Below the pieces are notes generated by a model. It searched no databases, had not been told where the DNA came from, and saw nothing but the letters and a program-made list of their open reading frames with translations. A program made the position numbers and the translations under genes. DNA of 64,000 nucleotides from Akkermansia muciniphila (GTDB taxonomy: Bacteria > Verrucomicrobiota > Verrucomicrobiia > Verrucomicrobiales > Akkermansiaceae): the NCBI RefSeq assembly GCF_900184965.1, contig NZ_FXYA01000215.1, positions 1-64,000 of the forward strand, in the 5' to 3' direction. Of the stretch, positions 1-23,450 are shown one piece after another (position 1 is the first letter of the stretch; every line of letters starts with the position of its first letter).

Positions 1-358
1 AAATGGAATCTTGCGATTTCATTTGCGCCATGCTTCAGCCGGCTCTTCCTTCAAGTTGTGTCTCTTGAAGGCCTCTTCGCTCTGCCTTGCACGGCGCGCG
101 TCACGACCTTTTTTCTTTCCCCTCGCTTCTACCAAACCACCCCTCTCAGAGCCAGGTCGCTCCTTCGGGCCTTTTACTCCTCCGGCACCTCTCGGCGCCC
201 TCGGAAAACCCTCGGCGGTTTTCGGTAGTCATTCCCTTGAAATCTTCTTATCGCCCCTGCTTCCAGGGAGCTCTCCGGGTGGCCGGCTCCAGCCGCTTCC
301 GTTACTCTTCCGAGTCCGTCTGCCGCCGGGCTTTTCATCCCGTCGCCGTGTTGGCGTG
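1..358 (-). ncRNA. GC-rich structured RNA, possibly rRNA operon leader (runs off left edge)
   Basis: Read leftward, this stretch is a series of short hairpins. Stem pairs in plus coordinates are 344-347/353-356, 304-307/312-315 (minus-strand loop GGAA), 284-287/292-295, 255-259/264-268, 204-210/217-223, 184-189/194-199 (minus-strand loop GAGA) and 48-55/64-71. A last one at 1-24 has a GCAA loop on the minus strand. The 184-199 stem closes with a G-U pair only on the minus strand, where an A-C mismatch would sit on the plus strand, and two or three loops are GNRA on that strand, so I read the RNA as leftward. It lies directly downstream of an rRNA-like promoter. No open frame here looks convincingly protein-coding. 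I find no RNase P, tmRNA or 6S signature. A long rRNA leader ahead of a 16S gene beyond the edge is the best guess; an independent structured RNA is the alternative. Confidence 0.45.
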
Positions 359-364
359 CCGAGA

Positions 365-420
365 ACTTTATCAACTTCCCCCTTTTTGTCAATTTTTTTC
401 GAGATGTTTTTTCATTTTTT
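365..420 (-). promoter_or_regulatory. Strong rRNA-type promoter with UP element, firing leftward
   Basis: On the minus strand a perfect -35 TTGACA (387-392) is followed after 16 bp by TAAAGT (365-370). Upstream lie phased A-tracts (393-418) like an UP element, and downstream a GC-rich discriminator. This architecture is typical of stable RNA promoters. Transcription would start near 358 and enter the hairpin-rich region at the left edge. Confidence 0.6.
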
Positions 421-675
421 CCCGCGCCTCATTCAGACCACCCCTGTCCATACAGCCATTAACACACATATAATCAATGAGATGCCGTTTTGTCATAATC
501 CCCCATCCTGTCGCGTCTTTTTTTGAACGCTTCCCTTTTTTCCCATCCCACTTCCCCGCCTCCCAGGGGAATTCAGCCCCCTTCCGCCCCTCTACAAGGA
601 AGGCTGGTTTTCCAAGCACACTCTATTCCCTCTCCATAGCGTCACTACTCTCACCAAAAAAATGCTCCTTCCCAT
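421..675. other. Intergenic stretch without recognised gene
   Basis: This pyrimidine-rich plus strand lies between the leftward promoter and the clpB terminator. A 76-codon minus-strand reading frame (389-619) crosses the promoter and has no recognisable domain, so I do not call it. Confidence 0.5.
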
Positions 676-716
676 TCGAACAATAAACAGGGGCGCAGCT
701 AATGCCGCGCCCCTGT
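676..716 (-). terminator. Rho-independent terminator of clpB
   Basis: A perfect 10-bp stem (687-696 with 707-716, ACAGGGGCGC/GCGCCCCTGT) has a 10-nt loop. On the minus strand it is followed by a T-rich tract. It sits about 40 bp beyond the clpB stop codon. Confidence 0.8.
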
Positions 717-753
717 CCGCTCCCGGCAATATACCGGCAAGCATGCTTTTCAG

Positions 754-3336
754 TTATTTTTTCTCCTTGGTGAAGTCCAGTTTGCCGTCTTTTTCCCTCA
801 CCACGATTTCCGTTCCTTCCGGGAAGTCTCCTTCCAGAAGCTTGAGACTGAGCGGGTCCAGAAGATCATGCTGAATGGCTCGTTTGAGAGGACGGGCTCC
901 ATACACAGGATCAAAACCATGATCCGCCACCAGAGCCGTAGCTTCCGGAGTCATGCGCAAAAACAGGCCCTTGGCTTCCAGACGCCTGCGGACACGCTGA
1001 AGCTGAATGTCCACAATGCCCTTGAGTTCCTGCGCCGTGAGCCGGTCAAAGATGATGATTTCATCAATGCGGTTCAGGAATTCCGGACGGAAGTGGCCGC
1101 GCAACGCTTCCAGAGCCTTGGCTTCCCTCTGTTCCGCATTGGCTTCATTGAGGATGTACTGGCTGCCGATGTTGGAGGTCATGATGATGACCGTGTTGCG
1201 GAAGTCAACCGTACGCCCCTGGCCGTCCGTAATGCGGCCGTCGTCCAGCACCTGGAGCAATACGTTGAAGACGTCCGGGTGAGCCTTTTCAATTTCATCG
1301 AAGAGAACCACGCAGTACGGACGACGGCGCACGGCTTCAGAGAGCTGACCGCCTTCTTCATACCCCACGTATCCGGGAGGCGCCCCGATGAGGCGCGCGA
1401 CGGAATGTTTTTCCATGTATTCGGACATGTCAATGCGGACGATGGCGTTCTCACTGTCAAAGAGGAATTCCGCCAGCGCCTTGCTGAGTTCCGTCTTGCC
1501 CACGCCGGTGGGTCCCAGGAACAGGAAAGAGCCGATGGGCCTGTTTTCATCCTGCAACCCGGCGCGGGCGCGTCTCACGGCGTCGGATACGGCCTTAACG
1601 GCCTGTTTCTGCCCGATTACGCGGGCGCCCAGACGCTCTTCCATGTGCACCAGCTTGGCACGCTCCCCTTCCTGCAGACGGGCGGCGGGAATGCCGGTCC
1701 AGGTGGCAACCACTTTGGCAATGTCTCCTTCCGTGACTTCCTCCTTCAGCAGCCCCCCATCTTCCTTCTGCATTTTGCTGAGCTTTTCCTTGCCTTCCGT
1801 CAGGGCGCGCTGGGCTTCCGGAAGTTCGCCATAGGTGATTTCCGACGCGCGGGTCAGGTCACCCATACGTTTGGCCCTTTCGCTTTCCAGTTTGAGGGTT
1901 TCTATTTTTTCCTGTTCCCTGCGGACGGCGTCCAGCACTTCTTTTTCGCTTTTCCATTTGGCAATCATGGAACCGGATTTTTCCTTCAAGTCGGCCAGGT
2001 CCTTGGTGATTTTTTCCAAACGGGCCTTGCTGTCGGCGTCTTCTTCCTTCGCCAGCGCCTGCCGCTCCATTTCAAGCTGCATGGCCTCACGTTCAATCTG
2101 ATCAATTTCCGTAGGCATGGAGTCCAGCTCAATTTTGAGGCGGGCTGCCGCTTCATCCACCAGGTCTACTGCCTTGTCAGGCAGAAAACGGTCGGAAATA
2201 TAACGGTCGGAAAGGGTGGCCGCCGCTACGATGGCAGCGTCCGTAATACGCACTCCATGGTGGACTTCATAGCGTTCTTTCAAGCCGCGCAGAATGGCGA
2301 TGGTATCTTCCACGCTGGGTTCGGAGACCATGACGGGCTGAAACCGGCGCTCCAGAGCCGCATCTTTTTCAATGTATTTGCGGTATTCGTCCAGTGTTGT
2401 CGCGCCGATGGTCCGCAGTTCCCCGCGGGCCAGGGCGGGCTTGAGCAGGTTGGAGGCATCCACCGCCCCTTCACTGGCGCCCGCGCCTACAATGGTGTGC
2501 AGTTCATCGATAAACAGAATGATTTCACCGTTGGAATCCGTTACTTCCTTAAGGAAGGATTTCAAGCGTTCTTCAAATTCACCGCGATATTTGGCTCCGG
2601 CAAGCATGGAGCCGATGTTGAGGGATACAATGCGCTTGTTGCGCATGCTTTCCGGCACGTCGCCGTTGACAATGCGCCGCGCCAGACCTTCCGCAATGGC
2701 GGTTTTGCCAACGCCGGGCTCCCCGATCAGGACGGGATTGTTTTTCGTCCTGCGGGAAAGAATCTGCAAAACGCGGCGGATTTCCGTATCGCGGCCGATG
2801 ACGGGGTCAATTTTACCGGCGCGGGCGCGGGCCGTCAGGTCCGTCCCATATTTTTCCAGCGTCTGGTATTTGCCTTCCGGGTTGTCGTCCGTCACGCGCT
2901 GGTTACCGCGCACTTCCTTCATGGCGGCCAGATAGTTATCCTTGGTCAGCCCAAAGGTGTCCGTCAACTGGTGCACTTTGTTTTGCGTGTCCAACGCCCC
3001 AAGCATGAAGTGTTCCACGCTGAGGTAGTCGTCTTTGAGCTTTTTGCGTTCCTCTTCCGCAGCCTGCATGACGGTAGCCAGGTCACGCCCCATCTGCGGC
3101 TGCGTGGTAGCGCCGCTTTGAGTAGGTTCGTGGGAAACCTCCCTTTGGGCTGCCTGGAGAAGCAGCCCCGGATCGCAAGAGGCTTTGCGGAGAATAGGGG
3201 AAAGAATTCCGCCTTCCTGCTCCAGTAACGCCACCAGAACGTCCAGAGAGGAAATTTCCGGTTTTCCAAGCCGGCCTGCAGTTTGCTGCGCCTGCATCAG
3301 CGCTTCCTGAAATTTTGTTGTTAGATTGTTAAGCAT
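754..3336 (-). CDS. clpB: ATP-dependent disaggregase ClpB
   Basis: This is a cytoplasmic Hsp100 hexameric chaperone that extracts polypeptides from aggregates together with DnaK. From the ATG at 3336 the protein has about 860 residues, the usual ClpB size. The Clp N-domain occupies about residues 1-145. The first AAA module has Walker A GEPGVGKT near residue 205 and the sequence [13 protein letters not shown]. The middle coiled-coil domain, absent from ClpA, covers about 400-520. The second AAA module has GPTGVGKTE near 600, followed by the ClpB C-terminal domain. The reading frame is open to 3372, but [10 protein letters not shown] is the normal family start. It stands alone with its own terminator. 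I see no CIRCE element upstream, only a short inverted repeat at 3387-3404. Confidence 0.97.
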
Positions 3337-15151: not shown

Positions 15152-15167
15152 TGTTCCACGTAGAACA
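15152..15167. promoter_or_regulatory. parS-like site (one mismatch)
   Basis: TGTTCCACGTAGAACA differs from the perfect parS at 20672 (TGTTCCACGTGGAACA) at one base. It lies in the intergenic region downstream of dnaN. parS sites are bound by ParB and cluster near chromosome origins. Confidence 0.6.
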
Positions 15168-15171
15168 TTTG

Positions 15172-15180
15172 TGTGAATAA
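15172..15180 (-). promoter_or_regulatory. DnaA box
   Basis: TTATTCACA on the minus strand fits the TTATNCACA DnaA box. The surrounding 11-mer GTGTGAATAAC is identical to one in the origin-like region at 18671. It sits 5 bp from the parS-like site. Confidence 0.5.
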
Positions 15181-15274: not shown

Positions 15275-16375
15275 TCAATTGGGAGATCTCATCGGCATGA
15301 GCACATACAGGAACTCATCTCCGATCTTCAAGACGCCCGGGCTCATTTCATCAATGAGATTCAGCGTAATAATCGTATCCCCGGCCATCGTCTTCAGGGG
15401 AGCCATGAAGAAATCCGGATTGAAGGAAATGGAAAGCGGCCTTCCGGCATAAGTGATCGTCATGGATTCATGGGCTTCACCCACGCCTTCCGCACTGGAA
15501 GCCACTTCCAGCTCGTTTTCACGGAAGTTCAGCTTGATATTCGTACTCTTGTCCACGGAAAGGAGGGAGACGCGGCGCACCGTTTCCAGCAGTTCTCCAC
15601 AGGGAAGTTCAATGCTTTCCTTGCAGTCCGTCGGGATTACCTGGCGGTAGTTCGGGTAATTGCCGTCAATCAGCTTGCTGATCAGTAACGTATCATTGAT
15701 TTCAAAAGCGGCCTGGTTGCGGGTGAAACGGATGGTGGCGGTTCCCACTTCATCCAGCAGGCGGCGGAGTTCACCAACAGCCTTGGTGGGCAGGATAGCG
15801 TCCAGCTGCTGTTCTTCCGGGAATTCCAGGGCGGTTTCCGCCAGGGCCAGACGGCGGCCGTCTGTGGCCACCAGGGTCATTTTGCCGTTACGGAAGGAGA
15901 GGGAAATGCCGTTCAGCACGTAGCGGGTCGTATCCGTGGAAATAGCGTATTCCGTGCGGCGGATGCAGTCCCGCAATACATTCTGGTCCACCTGGTACAC
16001 GGTTGCCTGTTCAAAGGACGGCAATTCCGGAAATTCATCCGCCGGAAGACCGTTCAGCTTAAACTGGGAGCGGCCGCATTCCACAGCAGCCTGGTTGCGC
16101 TGGTTGACATCCACCTGAACTTCGGCTTCAGGAAGTTCGCTGATGATGCTCACCAGCTTTTTAGCGGGCAGGGTCACGGAGCCTTCACGCAGCACATTCG
16201 CGGGAACTACGCCAGTAATGCATACGTCAAGATCAGTAGCCGTAAAACGTACCTGGCCGTTTTCAGCTTCAATCTTGACGTTGGAAAGAATAGGCAGCGT
16301 CGTCTTGGAAGACACGACGCTGGCAACCTGTCTCAGCCCGTCGAGAAATACTTGCTTGGAAATGGTAAACTTCAT
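15275..16375 (-). CDS. dnaN: DNA polymerase III beta subunit (sliding clamp)
   Basis: The 366-residue processivity clamp of the replicative polymerase has three repeated clamp domains along the full length. It begins MKFTISKQVFLDGLRQV and ends with the conserved YVLMPMR motif that helps form the partner-binding pocket. Length is normal for the family. It is monocistronic, with its own terminator at 15208, and is not next to dnaA or recF as in many bacteria. It does lie within 3-6 kb of the DnaA-box cluster and the parS sites. Confidence 0.97.
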   Translation of the reverse strand: MKFTISKQVFLDGLRQVASVVSSKTTLPILSNVKIEAENGQVRFTATDLDVCITGVVPANVLREGSVTLPAKKLVSIISELPEAEVQVDVNQRNQAAVECGRSQFKLNGLPADEFPELPSFEQATVYQVDQNVLRDCIRRTEYAISTDTTRYVLNGISLSFRNGKMTLVATDGRRLALAETALEFPEEQQLDAILPTKAVGELRRLLDEVGTATIRFTRNQAAFEINDTLLISKLIDGNYPNYRQVIPTDCKESIELPCGELLETVRRVSLLSVDKSTNIKLNFRENELEVASSAEGVGEAHESMTITYAGRPLSISFNPDFFMAPLKTMAGDTIITLNLIDEMSPGVLKIGDEFLYVLMPMRSPN

Positions 16376-17578: not shown

Positions 17579-17618
17579 GGCCGCATGCCGGGAGACGTTT
17601 TTCCGCATGCGGCCTTTT
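17579..17618 (+). terminator. Terminator of the LamG-like PEP-CTERM gene
   Basis: GGCCGCATGC (17579-17588) pairs perfectly with GCATGCGGCC (17605-17614), followed by TTTT. The convergent gene at 17625 could use the same hairpin in reverse. Confidence 0.85.
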
Positions 17619-17624
17619 CGGCAT

Positions 17625-18353
17625 TCAGGAAATTTCCATTCTGCCATTCACGTCCCCCGTGAATACTTCCCCCGGCCTGGTCCAAGTACCGGGAGAAAGA
17701 ACCCGCCCCGGCAAAACAACGGTATTGGCGCCCAGCCGCACATGGCTTCCAATGACGGCTCCAAGTTTGTTTCTTCCAGTAAATTCCAGCCTCCCTCCCG
17801 CCATCATTTTGTGTTCGCCGCCATCATGGCGAAAATTGGAACATACCGTTCCGGCGCCGAAGTTAACGTCATTGCCAATGATGGAATCCCCCGCATAACT
17901 CAAATGAGGGATCAATGTGCCGTCGCCGATAATACAATTTTTCAGTTCCACTCCCTGCCCTACTACGCAGTTATTCCCCAGAGACACATAACCCCTCAAA
18001 TGGCAATTAGGCCCTATGCGGCAGCCATCTCCCGCCCATACGGTCCCTTCCACAACCACACCCGGCATGATGACGGTCCCGTCCCCCACCCGGAGCGCTC
18101 CCATAACACAAACCCCTTCCCTCCCGGAGAAATTCTCCCATTCCATCTTCTCCATCACTTTTTCCTGCCATTCCAGCAGATCCCAGGGATAAACGAGACG
18201 CTCTATTGCTGCCTCCTTCCGCGTGAATACCCGCGTCAATCCGCTTTCCCCGCCTTTCCGGGCCAGCAAATGCCCCTCTTCACTCCTTGCCTCCCCTGCC
18301 CCGCAGGAGGCAAGCCATATGGCCGCCTCTGGGGAAAAATCATGCATGGACAC
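17625..18353 (-). CDS. Left-handed beta-helix acyltransferase/nucleotidyltransferase-like protein, probably frameshifted
   Basis: The 242 residues from the GTG at 18353 contain a long hexapeptide-repeat beta-helix (GDGTVIMPGVVVEGT through GAVIGSHVRLGANTVVLPG), like the C-terminal half of GlmU and related UDP-sugar pyrophosphorylase/acyltransferases. Coding character continues upstream of 18353 without a start codon (REAGFEAVFDPETPVWEEKG) to a TAG near 18447. A second frame (up to 18591) supplies plausible N-terminal sequence (KVAKLIYIPERDH, FHGFSVAGVNIARLL). Joining them needs a one-base shift around 18440-18450. So either the gene is a frameshift mutant or its start is unusual. The beta-helix part itself is intact. 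Confidence 0.65.
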   Translation of the reverse strand: MSMHDFSPEAAIWLASCGAGEARSEEGHLLARKGGESGLTRVFTRKEAAIERLVYPWDLLEWQEKVMEKMEWENFSGREGVCVMGALRVGDGTVIMPGVVVEGTVWAGDGCRIGPNCHLRGYVSLGNNCVVGQGVELKNCIIGDGTLIPHLSYAGDSIIGNDVNFGAGTVCSNFRHDGGEHKMMAGGRLEFTGRNKLGAVIGSHVRLGANTVVLPGRVLSPGTWTRPGEVFTGDVNGRMEIS

Positions 18354-18591
18354 CTCTATGATTTCCCCTTTTTCTTCCCAAACCGGAGTTTCCGGATCGA
18401 AAACCGCTTCAAAGCCCGCCTCCCGAAGGCGGGCAGCGCAGTAGACGGGCTATATTCACTCCAGCCACAGAAAAGCCGTGGAAGGGCGCTTCAGGGCTTG
18501 TAGCGGGAAAAGTATGATCCCTCTCCGGAATATAAATCAATTTGGCAACCTTCACAAAAGAATGGTATGCTTTCCTCCGTGGCCTCTGCAA

Positions 18592-18845
18592 GGAAGAATG
18601 CGCGAATCTGTTTTACAGCCGCGCCTGCCAATAACCCTGTGAAAGAATAAGTCAATTAACTGCGAATATGGTGTGAATAACTTATTCAGATGTTATCCAC
18701 ATTTTTGCGTGACAAATTTATTAACAGTTGGAATGAGATTTAATGCTTTCATTTTCAGTAAATTGAAATCTTATTCACACTAGACACACGATAGAAGAAG
18801 AAGGAATTTAATATTGTTAAACCTAATATTCTTCAATCACACAAC
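18592..18845. other. Candidate replication origin (DnaA-box cluster)
   Basis: This AT-rich gene-free stretch contains three boxes fitting TTATNCACA: TTATTCACA on the minus strand at 18672-18680, TTATCCACA at 18693-18701 and TTATTCACA at 18771-18779. A one-mismatch copy TTATTCAGA lies at 18682-18690. Between and beyond them lie AT-rich segments (18711-18767, 18800-18830) suited to unwinding. dnaN lies on one side and mnmG with a perfect parS on the other. dnaA itself is not in the window, so this is a candidate, not a proven oriC. Confidence 0.6.
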
Positions 18846-18852
18846 GTGATTG
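18834..18852. repeat. 7-bp hairpin at the start of ribD leader
   Basis: CAATCAC (18834-18840) pairs with GTGATTG (18846-18852) around a 5-nt loop, at the edge between the origin-like region and ribD. Its role is unknown. Confidence 0.35.
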
Positions 18853-18869
18853 TCCTTCTTCCGGTTTTC

Positions 18870-19940
18870 ATGCTACAAAACGGCGTGAATACGAAAAACC
18901 AGGATGACCGTTGGATGAGTATGGCCATAAAACTGGCCTCAAATGGGATCGGACTTACGAGCCCGAATCCCTGCGTGGGAGCGGTCATTGTACATGAAAA
19001 CCGGGTAATCGGTTCAGGATTTCATAAAAAAGCCGGTTTGCCCCATGCGGAAAGAGAGGCCATTGCTGACGGAGCGGCGAGAGGCAATGCAGCCCTGTTC
19101 GCTGATTCGACTTTGTATGTTACTCTGGAACCATGCAGCACTTCCGGAAAAACGCCGCCTTGTACGGATGCTATTTTGCAATATCGTTTCAAACGGGTGG
19201 TTTATGGTTCGGAAGACCCCAATCCCAAGCACCGCGGCGCTGCAGCTGATATTCTTGAGCAGGCCGGCATCAAGGTTACCCGCGGGGTTCTGGAAAAGGA
19301 ATGTGATCATTTAATCCGGGGATTCAGGTTGAACATGCTGGAAGGACGTCCCTGGGTAATTGCGAAAAGCGCCATGTCTCTGGATGGCCGCATTTCCCGC
19401 AGTCCGGAACGCTCCCAATGGCTGACGAATGAAAAATCCAGGTCTTTTGTACATACCCTGCGTGCCGAATGCGATGCGGTTCTCACCGGAGGGAATACCG
19501 TTCGTCTGGACAATCCGTCCCTGACCATTAGGAAACCGGATCGTGCTGTTTCTCTCCTCAAGGAACAACCCTGGCGTATTATTCTGACCCGTGATGTCGC
19601 TTCCATACCTGCGGATTCCATTTGTTTGACGGATGAATTTCGTGACCGCACCTTGATTGTGGAGAATGTTTTTAATTATTTGGAATTATTAAAAAAATTA
19701 TATGATGATAAAAAAATAGGGACTCTCCTTCTGGAAGCGGGAGGCTGTCTGGTCCGGGAATTCTTGAAAGCCCGTTTGGTCGATGAGTGGGTGGGATTTT
19801 ATGCTCCCATCATTATCGGCGGCGGTGCGGACGGCGTAGCGTCCGGTCCGTTTCTGGAGCATGAAGCCTGTCTTGAACAGCCTGTTGTGAATGCCTTTGG
19901 AGATGATGTGTGCATCAGGGGAGATATCTGTTACCGTTAA
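18870..19940 (+). CDS. ribD: Bifunctional riboflavin deaminase/reductase RibD
   Basis: Catalyses two consecutive steps of riboflavin synthesis: deamination of the diaminopyrimidinone phosphate, then NADPH-dependent reduction of its ribosyl group. The N-terminal zinc deaminase domain shows TSPNPCVGAVIV, the HAERE catalytic motif and the zinc-binding PCSTSGKTPPC. The C-terminal reductase domain starts near residue 145 (GRPWVIAKSAMSLDGRI) and has LLLEAGG and the GADGVASGP region. The start is uncertain: the frame opens with GTG at 18846, ATG at 18870 gives about 356 residues, and GTG at 18885 is also possible. No other rib genes are nearby. Confidence 0.92.
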   Translation: MLQNGVNTKNQDDRWMSMAIKLASNGIGLTSPNPCVGAVIVHENRVIGSGFHKKAGLPHAEREAIADGAARGNAALFADSTLYVTLEPCSTSGKTPPCTDAILQYRFKRVVYGSEDPNPKHRGAAADILEQAGIKVTRGVLEKECDHLIRGFRLNMLEGRPWVIAKSAMSLDGRISRSPERSQWLTNEKSRSFVHTLRAECDAVLTGGNTVRLDNPSLTIRKPDRAVSLLKEQPWRIILTRDVASIPADSICLTDEFRDRTLIVENVFNYLELLKKLYDDKKIGTLLLEAGGCLVREFLKARLVDEWVGFYAPIIIGGGADGVASGPFLEHEACLEQPVVNAFGDDVCIRGDICYR

Positions 19941-20400: not shown

Positions 20401-22287
20401 TTATGTTTGCTGCCTGCTGCGTTTTTGCAGATGCACGAGCAACAGGGCAATATCTGCCGGGGTAATTCCGGGAATGCGGGAGGCCTGTCCGATAGTTGCG
20501 GGACGTATATTGCCCAGCTTGATGACAGCCTCTTTTTTTAAGGCGTGGACATGTTCGTAATCAATATCGGCGGGAATAGTTTTATTTTCCATCCGTATGA
20601 TTTTTTCCGCCTGTTTTTTCTGCCTTTCAATATGTCCTTCGTACTGTATATCCGTGGCAATGGCATCCAAATGTTCCACGTGGAACATTTTTTTCAGTTC
20701 TTCAGGCAATAGGGTCCAGTCGTTGCCGGGCCTTTTAAGCCATGTGGAGAGAGAAACCCCTTCGTGTTTGAGGGCGGCTGCTTTTGTTATTCCTTCATCA
20801 ATGGCGTTTTTCCTGTCTTCCGCTTTTTGGGCCGTTTCACGGGTAATAAGGCCCGTTTCAAAAGCCAGAGGGGCCAACCGAAGGTCTGCGTTATCCTGGC
20901 GCAGCAGCAGGCGGAATTCTGCCCGGCTGGTGAACATGCGGTAAGGTTCATCGGTTCCCTTGGTAACGAGGTCATCTATCATGACGCCGATGTAAGCCTG
21001 ATCACGGCGCAGCACCAGAGAAGGTTTGCCCAGGGTTTTCAGGGCGGCGTTCGCTCCCGCCATCAAACCTTGCGCCGCGGCTTCTTCATAGCCGGATGTG
21101 CCGTTGATTTGACCTGCAAAATACAGGTTTTCCACCAGTTTTGTTTCCAGTGTGGGATGCAATTGCGTAGGAGGACAGAAGTCATATTCCACCGCATATC
21201 CCGGACGGATCAGCTGCGCGTTTTCCAAACCGGGAATGGTATGAATGAAATCGCACTGAGCAGAGTAGGGCAGGGAAGTGGAAACTCCGTTAAGGTAGAA
21301 TTCCTCCGTACTGCGGCCTTCCGGTTCCAGGAATACCTGATGGTTCGTTTTTTCCGCAAAGCGCACGATTTTATCTTCTATGGAGGGACAATACCGGGGG
21401 CCTACGCCTTCAATGATACCGCTGTAAAGAGGGCTGAATTTTAAATTTTTCCGGATAATGTCGTGCGTCGCCTGGTTGGTGTAGGTGATCCAGCAGGGCA
21501 TTTGCTTCATCCGGAAATTTTCATCTCCCCATGTGTTCAAAGTGCAAAAAGGTTCGGAATCACGTTTCAGTATATCGCGGGAACGGTAACTGAACAGGGC
21601 TTCCGGAGTATCTCCAGGCTGCATTTCGCAGACGGAAAAGTCAATGGACTTTCCATTGACGCGGGGAGAAGTTCCCGTTTTAAGCCGTTCCACCTGAAAA
21701 CCCAGCATGGCAAGATCGGCGGAAAGGCTGGAAGAAGCGCAACCCATTCGGCCGCCTGTTATGTGCTGAAGGCCTACATGAAGCAATCCCTTCATGAATG
21801 TCCCGGAGCAGATAATCACGCTGCGGGCATGAATGGCGCAGTCCAGAGAAGTAACAACTCCCGTTACCTGTTGTTCCCCGTTGACGAGCAATCTGACCAC
21901 ATCTCCCTGAAACAGGCGTATGCCCGGGGCGGTTTCCAGAACCATTTTCATTCTTGTGCGGTAGGCTGTTTTATCGCACTGGGCGCGGGGAGCGCGCACG
22001 CTGGGCCCCTTGGAGGCGTTAAGCATCCGGAATTGAATGGCGGTGGCATCCGTGTTCAATCCCATGGCTCCGCCCAGGGCGTCTATTTCCCGGACGATAT
22101 GCCCTTTAGCAAGTCCCCCGATAGCCGGGTTGCAGGACATTTGCCCAATGGTATCCAGGTTATGGGTCAGGACGGCGACGGAACACCCCAGACGGGATGC
22201 TGCCAGCGCCGCCTCAATACCTGCGTGCCCGGCGCCGACGACGAGAACGTCAAACAGGGGGAAAACGGAAGAAGAGGAGGAGTTCAT
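20401..22287 (-). CDS. mnmG: tRNA uridine-5-carboxymethylaminomethyl synthase subunit MnmG
   Basis: The FAD-binding partner of MnmE (GidA) installs the cmnm5 group on U34 of several tRNAs. At 628 residues it has the normal length. The N-terminal dinucleotide fold reads [42 protein letters not shown]-type sequence and [16 protein letters not shown] are all family hallmarks, and the C-terminal helical domain ends the protein. The parS palindrome at 20672-20687 is embedded in the coding sequence and encodes MFHVEH. The start overlaps the holA stop by one base (TGATG), so the two are translationally coupled. Confidence 0.97.
20672..20687. promoter_or_regulatory. parS centromere site within mnmG
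   Basis: TGTTCCACGTGGAACA is a perfect 16-bp palindrome identical to well-known bacterial parS sequences and is translated as MFHVEH. ParB binds such sites for chromosome segregation, and they usually lie near the origin. Confidence 0.88.
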
Positions 22288-23450
22288 CAGGATGCGGAAC
22301 AGATGGCAAGACGATGCAGAATCAGGCGGGGATCAAGAGAGGAGGACACTAGGGCTTTATCTGCTTTCATGCATTCTTTCAAAGTTTGCTTCAGCCGTTC
22401 CGTCTTGAATTTGGAAGCGTTCTGCGCCGCCAGAAAAAGCGGGTAAGCATTGGGAGAGCCGTCTTTTTTCAGGGGAATTAACGCGGCTGCATAAGAGGGC
22501 AGAGAAGAAATGCGGGCCGTAAATTCCTTGAAATTGGTGGGCTTCAGGTTGAATGCGTCACATAAAAGTCTGGCGGCCAGCAGATTCCTTAGAGTAGGGA
22601 TGAATGCGGCGCGCATGATGGTGATGGCGTTTTCACCGCGTTCCAGTTGAAAGTCAATCAGAGAGATAGCCGCGTCGCTTTTCTTGTTTTCCAGAGCCCG
22701 GGAAATTTCAAAAATAACGCCTGTGCGCGTCAGCGGAACCATGCGCTCTACATCCTCCGGCATTACGGTGCGTCTGCCCGCTCCCAGATAAAGATCCAGT
22801 TTTTCAATTTCAGAAATGATTTGGCGGGAGGATTCGCTGACGCGGTGAATGAACAGTTCCAGGGCAGCGGAATCGAAATTCATACCTCGCGCTGCCGTTT
22901 CCTTATTAATGAGGGGCATTAAACTGCCTTCCCATCCTGCTTTGGTGATGTCCGGCTTGTTCAATTCTTCCGACACGGCGGATTGAAGCAGGAATTTGTT
23001 GAAGGAACGGCGCTTGTCAAATTCGGAGGCGGAAATAAGCAGCAGGACGTCCGGCCCCAGGCCGCTTTCTAGCAATTGCCTGAAGGAGTCCAGAGCCGCT
23101 TCCGTAGTGGAGGAACGTCCCGTGACGGAGTCTCCCAGAAAATTGCAGTTCTTCATCCAGACTACTTTGCGTCCCGGAAAAAATGGGAGGGTCCGCAGAG
23201 CTTCCGTAACCTGGCGTACCACCTGAGCCGCTTCATCGGAATCACCGCAGGCCGCTTCCAGAATTTCATGGGAAAATTCGTTCGTGCCTTCCGTCAGAGC
23301 GGCAAAAATGCCGGAAGCCTTTTCACGCACCATTCCTTCATCCGTGCCGAAGACGAGATGAATGGCTTGTTGTTGTAAAGCGCTGGAACCCATAAAACCG
23401 TAACCGCATGATATCATAAAGTACGGTTTGTTGAAAGGCGTATTTGTCAT
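22287..23450 (-). CDS. holA: DNA polymerase III delta subunit-like protein
   Basis: A 387-residue protein with the arrangement of the clamp-loader delta subunit: an N-terminal AAA-like fold starting near [16 protein letters not shown], a central segment [20 protein letters not shown], and a helical C-terminal domain ([42 protein letters not shown]). Delta lacks a Walker A motif, and none is seen here. It opens the beta clamp encoded by dnaN. It is longer than the usual 330-345 residues because of insertions in the first half. It is coupled to mnmG by a one-base overlap. Confidence 0.85.

Follow-up and report, generated by a model that had tools for sequence, protein, structure and literature searches.

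The region at 18592-18845 is very probably the chromosomal origin of replication (oriC) of a member of the A. muciniphila group of Akkermansia, and in all likelihood it is an origin ordinary in kind, the unusual features being its distance from dnaA and its neighbour, ribD. It lies within the 64,000 nucleotides analysed here, hereafter the window, which comprise bases 1-64000 of contig C2 in a 2.86 Mb assembly of 215 contigs (G000). The elements of the region, and the genes and sites around it, are the following.

15152-15167, plus strand: second parS-like site, TGTTCCACGTAGAACA, on the dnaN side (sequence match)
15172-15180, minus strand: lone DnaA box next to the parS-like site above, which close relatives have conserved
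15275-16375, minus strand: dnaN (DNA polymerase III beta), 2.3 kb left of the box cluster
17625-18353, minus strand: hexapeptide-repeat gene, immediate left neighbour (gene search)
18672-18680, minus strand: DnaA box TTATTCACA, left arm of the inverted pair
18682-18690, plus strand: weak DnaA box TTATTCAGA (one mismatch), retained in most muciniphila-group loci read
18693-18701, plus strand: DnaA box TTATCCACA, right arm of the inverted pair
18718-18726, plus strand: weak DnaA box TTATTAACA, an exact box in six aligned muciniphila-group relatives
18771-18779, plus strand: DnaA box TTATTCACA of the unwinding core (sequence, alignment)
18780-18788, plus strand: degenerate tandem DnaA box CTAGACACA (two mismatches), abutting the 18771 box, with a tandem layout in relatives
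18792-18806, plus strand: triplet repeat TAG-AAG-AAG-AAG-GAA (DnaA-trio type), 12 bp past the 18771 box
18804-18831, no strand: AT-rich stretch (82% AT), likely duplex-unwinding element, strongly conserved in aligned muciniphila-group loci
18885-19940, plus strand: ribD, immediate right neighbour (start inferred from alignment)
20401-22287, minus strand: mnmG/gidA, 1.6 kb right of the box cluster
20672-20687, plus strand: parS-like site TGTTCCACGTGGAACA inside mnmG (sequence match)
22287-23450, minus strand: holA-like gene (DNA polymerase III delta), on the right side beyond mnmG

The earlier note, which had proposed an oriC here, described three boxes and a near-match within 110 bp of AT-rich, gene-free DNA, and this description holds. 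Three exact TTATNCACA boxes, namely 18672-18680 (minus strand), 18693-18701 and 18771-18779 (both plus strand), span 108 bp, and two one-mismatch sites, at 18682-18690 and 18718-18726, belong to the same cluster. The whole window contains four exact TTATNCACA sites against 0.72 expected, a number that none of 100 shuffles reached, while its 33 one-mismatch sites are at chance level (29.8 expected). Locally, three exact sites occur in 430 bp, and because shuffles of this 430-bp region average 0.023, with a maximum of one in 1000 rounds, the cluster is real rather than a chance occurrence. It lies in non-coding, AT-rich DNA of the kind looked for in an oriC, the interval 18592-18845 being 66.5% AT and the window 45.3%. 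As for genes, alignment suggests that ribD starts at the GTG at 18885 and that the open reading frame start at 18846 is over-extended; with this start, the space from about 18504 to 18884 is gene-free. The inverted pair of boxes, searched as TGTGNATAA-N(4-34)-TTATNCACA, is present as a single genome-wide copy in G000, G004 and G017, always at the ribD-linked locus. The same pattern was matched in eight of 59 genomes, and a reversed control pattern in none of the genomes listed; the match adjoins ribD in G007, G023 and G036, and sits elsewhere in G008 and G014.

Among the eight loci aligned, the best conserved stretch is 18771-18831 rather than the inverted pair. This putative unwinding core reads, in order, TTATTCACA, the weaker CTAGACACA, three bases, the five triplets (TAGAAGAAGAAG, DnaA-trio type), and GAATTTAATATTGTTAAACCTAATATTC, which accounts for the 82% AT; the first box is TTGTTCACA in most muciniphila-group relatives, and G015 is more divergent. 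The basal unwinding system (BUS) of the B. subtilis type, which is described as widespread, has one or two DnaA boxes, a spacer with a peak at about 10-13 bp and three or more A-centred triplets (PMC8287927). The Akkermansia core is like the system outlined there in its tandem boxes, its 12-bp spacer after TTATTCACA, which is within a limit of 16 bp, its at least three central-A triplets (18792-18806) and the AT-rich DNA beyond. It is unlike it in adjoining ribD instead of dnaA, and in that GATGATGATGAA-type triplets replace TAG/AAG in many Akkermansia outside the muciniphila group. A strict rule for the core was defined as a box with at most two mismatches (canonical, or either of the two changed forms discussed below), 0-16 bp, and four A-centred triplets with a repeated neighbour. 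Beside ribD, 48 of 66 genus genomes have a sequence obeying this rule, or 45 if only the canonical box is allowed, as does one of 20 order-mates (G057); in shuffles such sequences appeared in 1.55 of 66 on average and in at most four. The 18 genus genomes without such a sequence include G015, one of the genomes used for skew; most of the 18 have shorter or irregular triplets as judged by eye, and G008 and G097 have no clear ones.

The GC skew of the window is mostly negative on the left and mostly positive on the right, with the turn at about 18.5-19 kb. Beyond the window, contig C2 is positive in eight of eight sampled stretches, out to 430 kb, and the five stretches taken from C32, the contig that carries dnaA, are negative except for near-zero values in the first 20 kb. 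Since the window's own assembly is fragmented, skew was further sampled in single-contig genomes, covering about 11% of G060, 23% of G004 and 14% of G015. First, in G060, which has the same species label and a single contig of 2,650,075 bp, skew was sampled in 15 stretches, each about 20 kb long, and is negative up to ribD (-0.075/-0.080 at 953.0-972.9 kb) and positive just past it (+0.077/+0.078 at 973.4-993.4 kb), the opposite change falling between about 2.17 and 2.35 Mb. Second, in G004 (3,175,525 bp; 60 stretches, namely 59 of 12,000 plus one of 18,001, for a total of 726 kb), the cumulative minimum at 1.23-1.28 Mb is the site of the homologous cluster, whose match begins at 1,237,728, and the maximum is near 2.8 Mb, with little change as far as about 3.0 Mb. 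Third, in the more distant genus member G015 (a single contig of 3,497,179 bp), skew turns at about 422-426 kb, adjoining its ribD (425.3 kb), with a negative patch again at about 465-490 kb. Thus the minimum falls at the locus in the sampled stretches of all three genomes, which is the outcome expected under one half of the refuting test that the earlier note had set, the half that concerns skew.

The linked markers dnaN, mnmG and parS are all present. The earlier note placed dnaN on one side and mnmG with a parS site on the other, and these are indeed nearby, but the immediate neighbours are the hexapeptide-repeat gene and ribD. The two parS-like sites have two and three mismatches to TGTTTCACGTGAAACA, and none and one to TGTTCCACGTGGAACA, so that by sequence they are palindromes near TGTTTCACGTGAAACA clustered at the proposed origin. 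In the 726 kb sampled of G004, and likewise in the 300 kb sampled of G060, sites with at most two mismatches number just two, both at the locus, the pair lying within 4 kb of the ribD-linked cluster. Downstream of dnaN, the parS-like palindrome and the lone DnaA box are kept together (15152-15180) in close relatives.

A dnaA gene often marks the origin, and its adjacency is common, though not required for an oriC. Here, in agreement with the earlier note, dnaA is not adjacent: it is located on C32 in G000, and the DnaA match starts at base 385 in G060, at base 422 in G004 and at 2.81 Mb in G015, which puts dnaA 1.0-1.2 Mb from the origin, and closer to the terminus, in these three single-contig genomes. 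Coordinate 1 lies within 2.3 kb of dnaA in five of six single-contig genomes (G004, G059, G060, G063 and G066, not G015), which looks like an assembly convention; in the two dnaA-start genomes sampled, G004 and G060, it is nearer the terminus than the origin.

It is conceivable, albeit very improbable, that the true origin is nonetheless at dnaA, and that the cluster is a titrating or regulatory site, similar to datA or DARS, or part of the ribD promoter. Clusters of DnaA boxes with such titrating or regulatory roles are known in E. coli, a four-box cluster is found elsewhere in G008 and G014, and the dnaA locus has one or two exact boxes in six of 36 genus genomes (G013, G014, G025, G026, G027 and G034). 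However, it is the ribD-linked locus, not dnaA, that has the skew minimum, the parS-like sites and the box-trio-AT core. Moreover, no TTATNCACA occurs near dnaA in G000 (40-60 kb of C32), G004 (bases 1-3000) or G015 (20 kb around the gene), and the skew to either side of the gene is negative in G060, and about zero before it and negative after it in G004. Given this lack of boxes and of any turn to positive, a dnaA-linked origin was rejected. Less probable still is a real skew minimum with the firing site elsewhere in 15-21 kb, for example at the dnaN-side 15172 box and parS-like site, which are conserved and within the kilobase resolution of skew, but that site has a single box, and outside the muciniphila group the cluster stays at ribD while the dnaN-linked DNA read is without one.

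With an oriC at 18592-18845 as the preferred reading, we infer a conventional order of events. DnaA, encoded about 1 Mb away, would bind the inverted pair and its neighbouring boxes (18672-18726), as well as the tandem boxes (18771-18788), from which a DnaA oligomer would extend along one strand over the triplets at 18792-18806. The AT-rich stretch at 18804-18831 would then be melted by DnaA, the helicase would load and two forks would leave, and the flanking parS-like sites (15152 and 20672) may let ParB segregate the new origins.

To see how far this arrangement extends, the sequence preceding ribD was compared across 66 genomes of the genus and 20 from other families of the order. The motif TTATNCAC occurs upstream of ribD in 59 of the 66, and twice or more in 52; the seven genus genomes without it are five of one clade plus G094 (L306) and G097 (L282), which have a canonical DnaA helix and boxes that look degenerate. 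None of the 17 ribD-anchored order-mates has it (G052 with 57 upstream bases only), and the sole exact TTATNCACA among the 20 order-mates, in G042, is about 1.5 kb upstream of ribD. This comparison had no ribD anchor for G041, G044, G058, G061, G062 and G063, whose N-terminal motif is missing. Judging from these loci, ribD is the neighbour that the probable origin keeps throughout the genus, with dnaA located away from it. Among the loci read, dnaN adjoins the origin in the muciniphila group only, and as an anchor it was discarded, given that dnaN-linked DNA (often a short contig) outside this group has no cluster whereas ribD-linked DNA has one. The unwinding core at 18771-18831, the second parS-like site and ribD as an apparently constant neighbour go beyond what the earlier note contained.

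In 12 of 22 order-mates the matches to dnaA and dnaN are no more than about 1 kb apart, compared with none of 35 genus genomes in which both were found, most of these 35 being drafts whose contig breaks could hide some links. These counts suggest that dnaA and the origin became separated in the Akkermansia lineage. For another verrucomicrobium, Methylacidiphilum infernorum, the origin was assigned by GC skew to 250 nt upstream of dnaA (PMC2474590). The two cases share a phylum and the use of skew, and differ in that the M. infernorum origin is beside dnaA and that of Akkermansia remote from it.

Akkermansia has itself been mapped: a study combining Hi-C with GC skew, parS sites and read coverage placed the origins of 12 gut bacteria, among them A. 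muciniphila YL44 (PMC10197239). It cautions that the origin is not systematically found at dnaA, and it reports ParABS homologs in its 12 genomes, YL44 included. A rough origin of A. muciniphila YL44 is therefore already published. It resembles ours in genus and in its placement by skew and parS; the maps are at 5 kb, and the portion of the text consulted names no boxes, trios or neighbour genes. A sequence-level account of the Akkermansia origin was not among the matches listed from the open literature, as far as titles and the starts of abstracts tell, and DoriC may hold a prediction.

Most interesting in these data is that DnaA and its boxes seem to have changed in concert within a related clade, formed by G001, G003, G031, G083 and G086 (ribD-upstream loci L211, L209, L206, L291 and L298, respectively). 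First, the arrays upstream of ribD in G001, G003 and G031 contain no TTATNCAC, and have 14 CTGACA repeats versus four in 33 other genus genomes; when G083 is included, the count rises to 19, against 1.2 expected and a maximum of five in 1000 shuffles. The repeats occupy the DnaA-box positions of aligned relatives and adjoin the kept triplet/AT core, with variable bases preceding CTGACA (TTG, TTA, AAA, GAA and others; an example form is TTGCTGACA). The array of G086 has four TTATTGACA (0.015 expected) and, again, no TTATNCAC.

Second, the DnaA of G001, G003 and G031 reads GGRSHATVLNA, with RDH kept in 43 other alignment rows, and G083 is as G001, so that four clade members have this form in place of GGRDHGTV.HA. 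Mapped on domain IV of E. coli DnaA (1j1v), the changes are D433S, T435A (G in most of the genus) and H439N, and residues 433, 435 and 439 are listed as box contacts (PMC7561715; PMC5043019). The canonical GRDH.TV motif is present in 69 of 76 genus genomes, the seven without it being the five clade members, G086 by absence of the motif alone, plus G012 and G035, for which no DnaA domain IV was found. A pattern for the altered motif was matched in seven of 76 genomes, and within dnaA only in G001, G003, G031 and G083.

Third, at least four CTGACA or TTATTGACA with no TTATNCAC were found in all five of the genomes lacking the canonical helix motif versus none of 56 ribD-anchored genomes with a canonical helix, where the largest counts are two CTGACA (G009) and two TTATTGACA (G030). 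A tree built on 54 RibD rows, of which 37 belong to the genus, and from which the same six genomes were dropped for want of the N-terminal motif, groups the five as one clade (100/99), with G086 branching first; one clade is a single event, and hence five out of five are not five independent observations.

Taken together, these observations make it probable that the code between initiator and origin was rewritten within one genus, by loss of the helix motif and change in place of the ribD-linked boxes. On this reading, TTATTCACA would have given way to TTATTGACA in G086, the first to branch, and to a CTGACA core in the other four, with the triplet/AT core staying as it was. The co-change, even as one evolutionary event, suggests a tie between DnaA and the ribD-linked locus. 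It is unlikely, though clearly less so than the two displaced origins considered above, that boxes and helix changed separately, with CTGACA and TTATTGACA binding another protein and DnaA acting elsewhere. Such a scenario would be in line with the single event that the clade amounts to statistically, with up to three YTGACA also in canonical-helix genomes (G002, G009, G030 and G076) and with short-range skew near the clade loci, which has no clear pattern in G001 and G003 and only rises towards zero in G031. The dnaA loci of G001, G003, G031 and G083, moreover, have neither TTRCTGACA nor TTATTGACA. Against it, the repeats replace boxes at aligned array positions, beside a triplet/AT core that was kept, and arrays of at least four changed boxes go with absence of the canonical helix motif in every case and with its presence in none of the 56.

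A diverged DnaA box or box preference has been described for Thermotoga maritima (PMC10316083) and for Epsilonproteobacteria (PMC5043019), where, as in the clade studied here, it departs from the E. coli form. Those differences are between phyla or classes, whereas the probable change in Akkermansia is within one genus, at an alignable locus and with an intermediate form. Among the matches listed, judged by titles and the starts of abstracts, there was no DnaA-box specificity switch within a genus. If the co-change is true, an essential protein that must read several sites simultaneously would have altered its specificity naturally and stepwise, and the sister clade offers a test of how an essential initiator shifts specificity when several sites must change together. 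If the placement of the origin is true, growth-rate estimates, replichore analyses and origin annotation that are anchored at dnaA would, for this much-studied gut genus, be off by about 1 Mb, and the ribD-linked origin, with its compact box-trio core, becomes a candidate for replicating vectors.

The off-ribD matches in G008 and G014 are clusters of four exact DnaA boxes, as two inverted pairs (L161, at about 3077 of G008:C98; L162, at about 673 of G014:C110). They adjoin transporter-like, transposase or SGNH genes, with a transposase in one case, and might serve to titrate DnaA or belong to a different replicon. The DnaN of the window is 96-99% identical to five database records; the dnaN of L074 (JAETQD010000032.1), a contig titled as a Clostridium sp. 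MAG, is 98% identical to that of the window, and this contig is probably mis-binned. The hexapeptide-repeat gene encodes 242 aa in the window versus 389 aa in G015, and 17607-18503 holds three stops, so the window's copy is possibly truncated. Across the origin in G023, the gene (L158:1592-2269) is without a Pfam match and unlike the hexapeptide-repeat neighbour of the muciniphila group.
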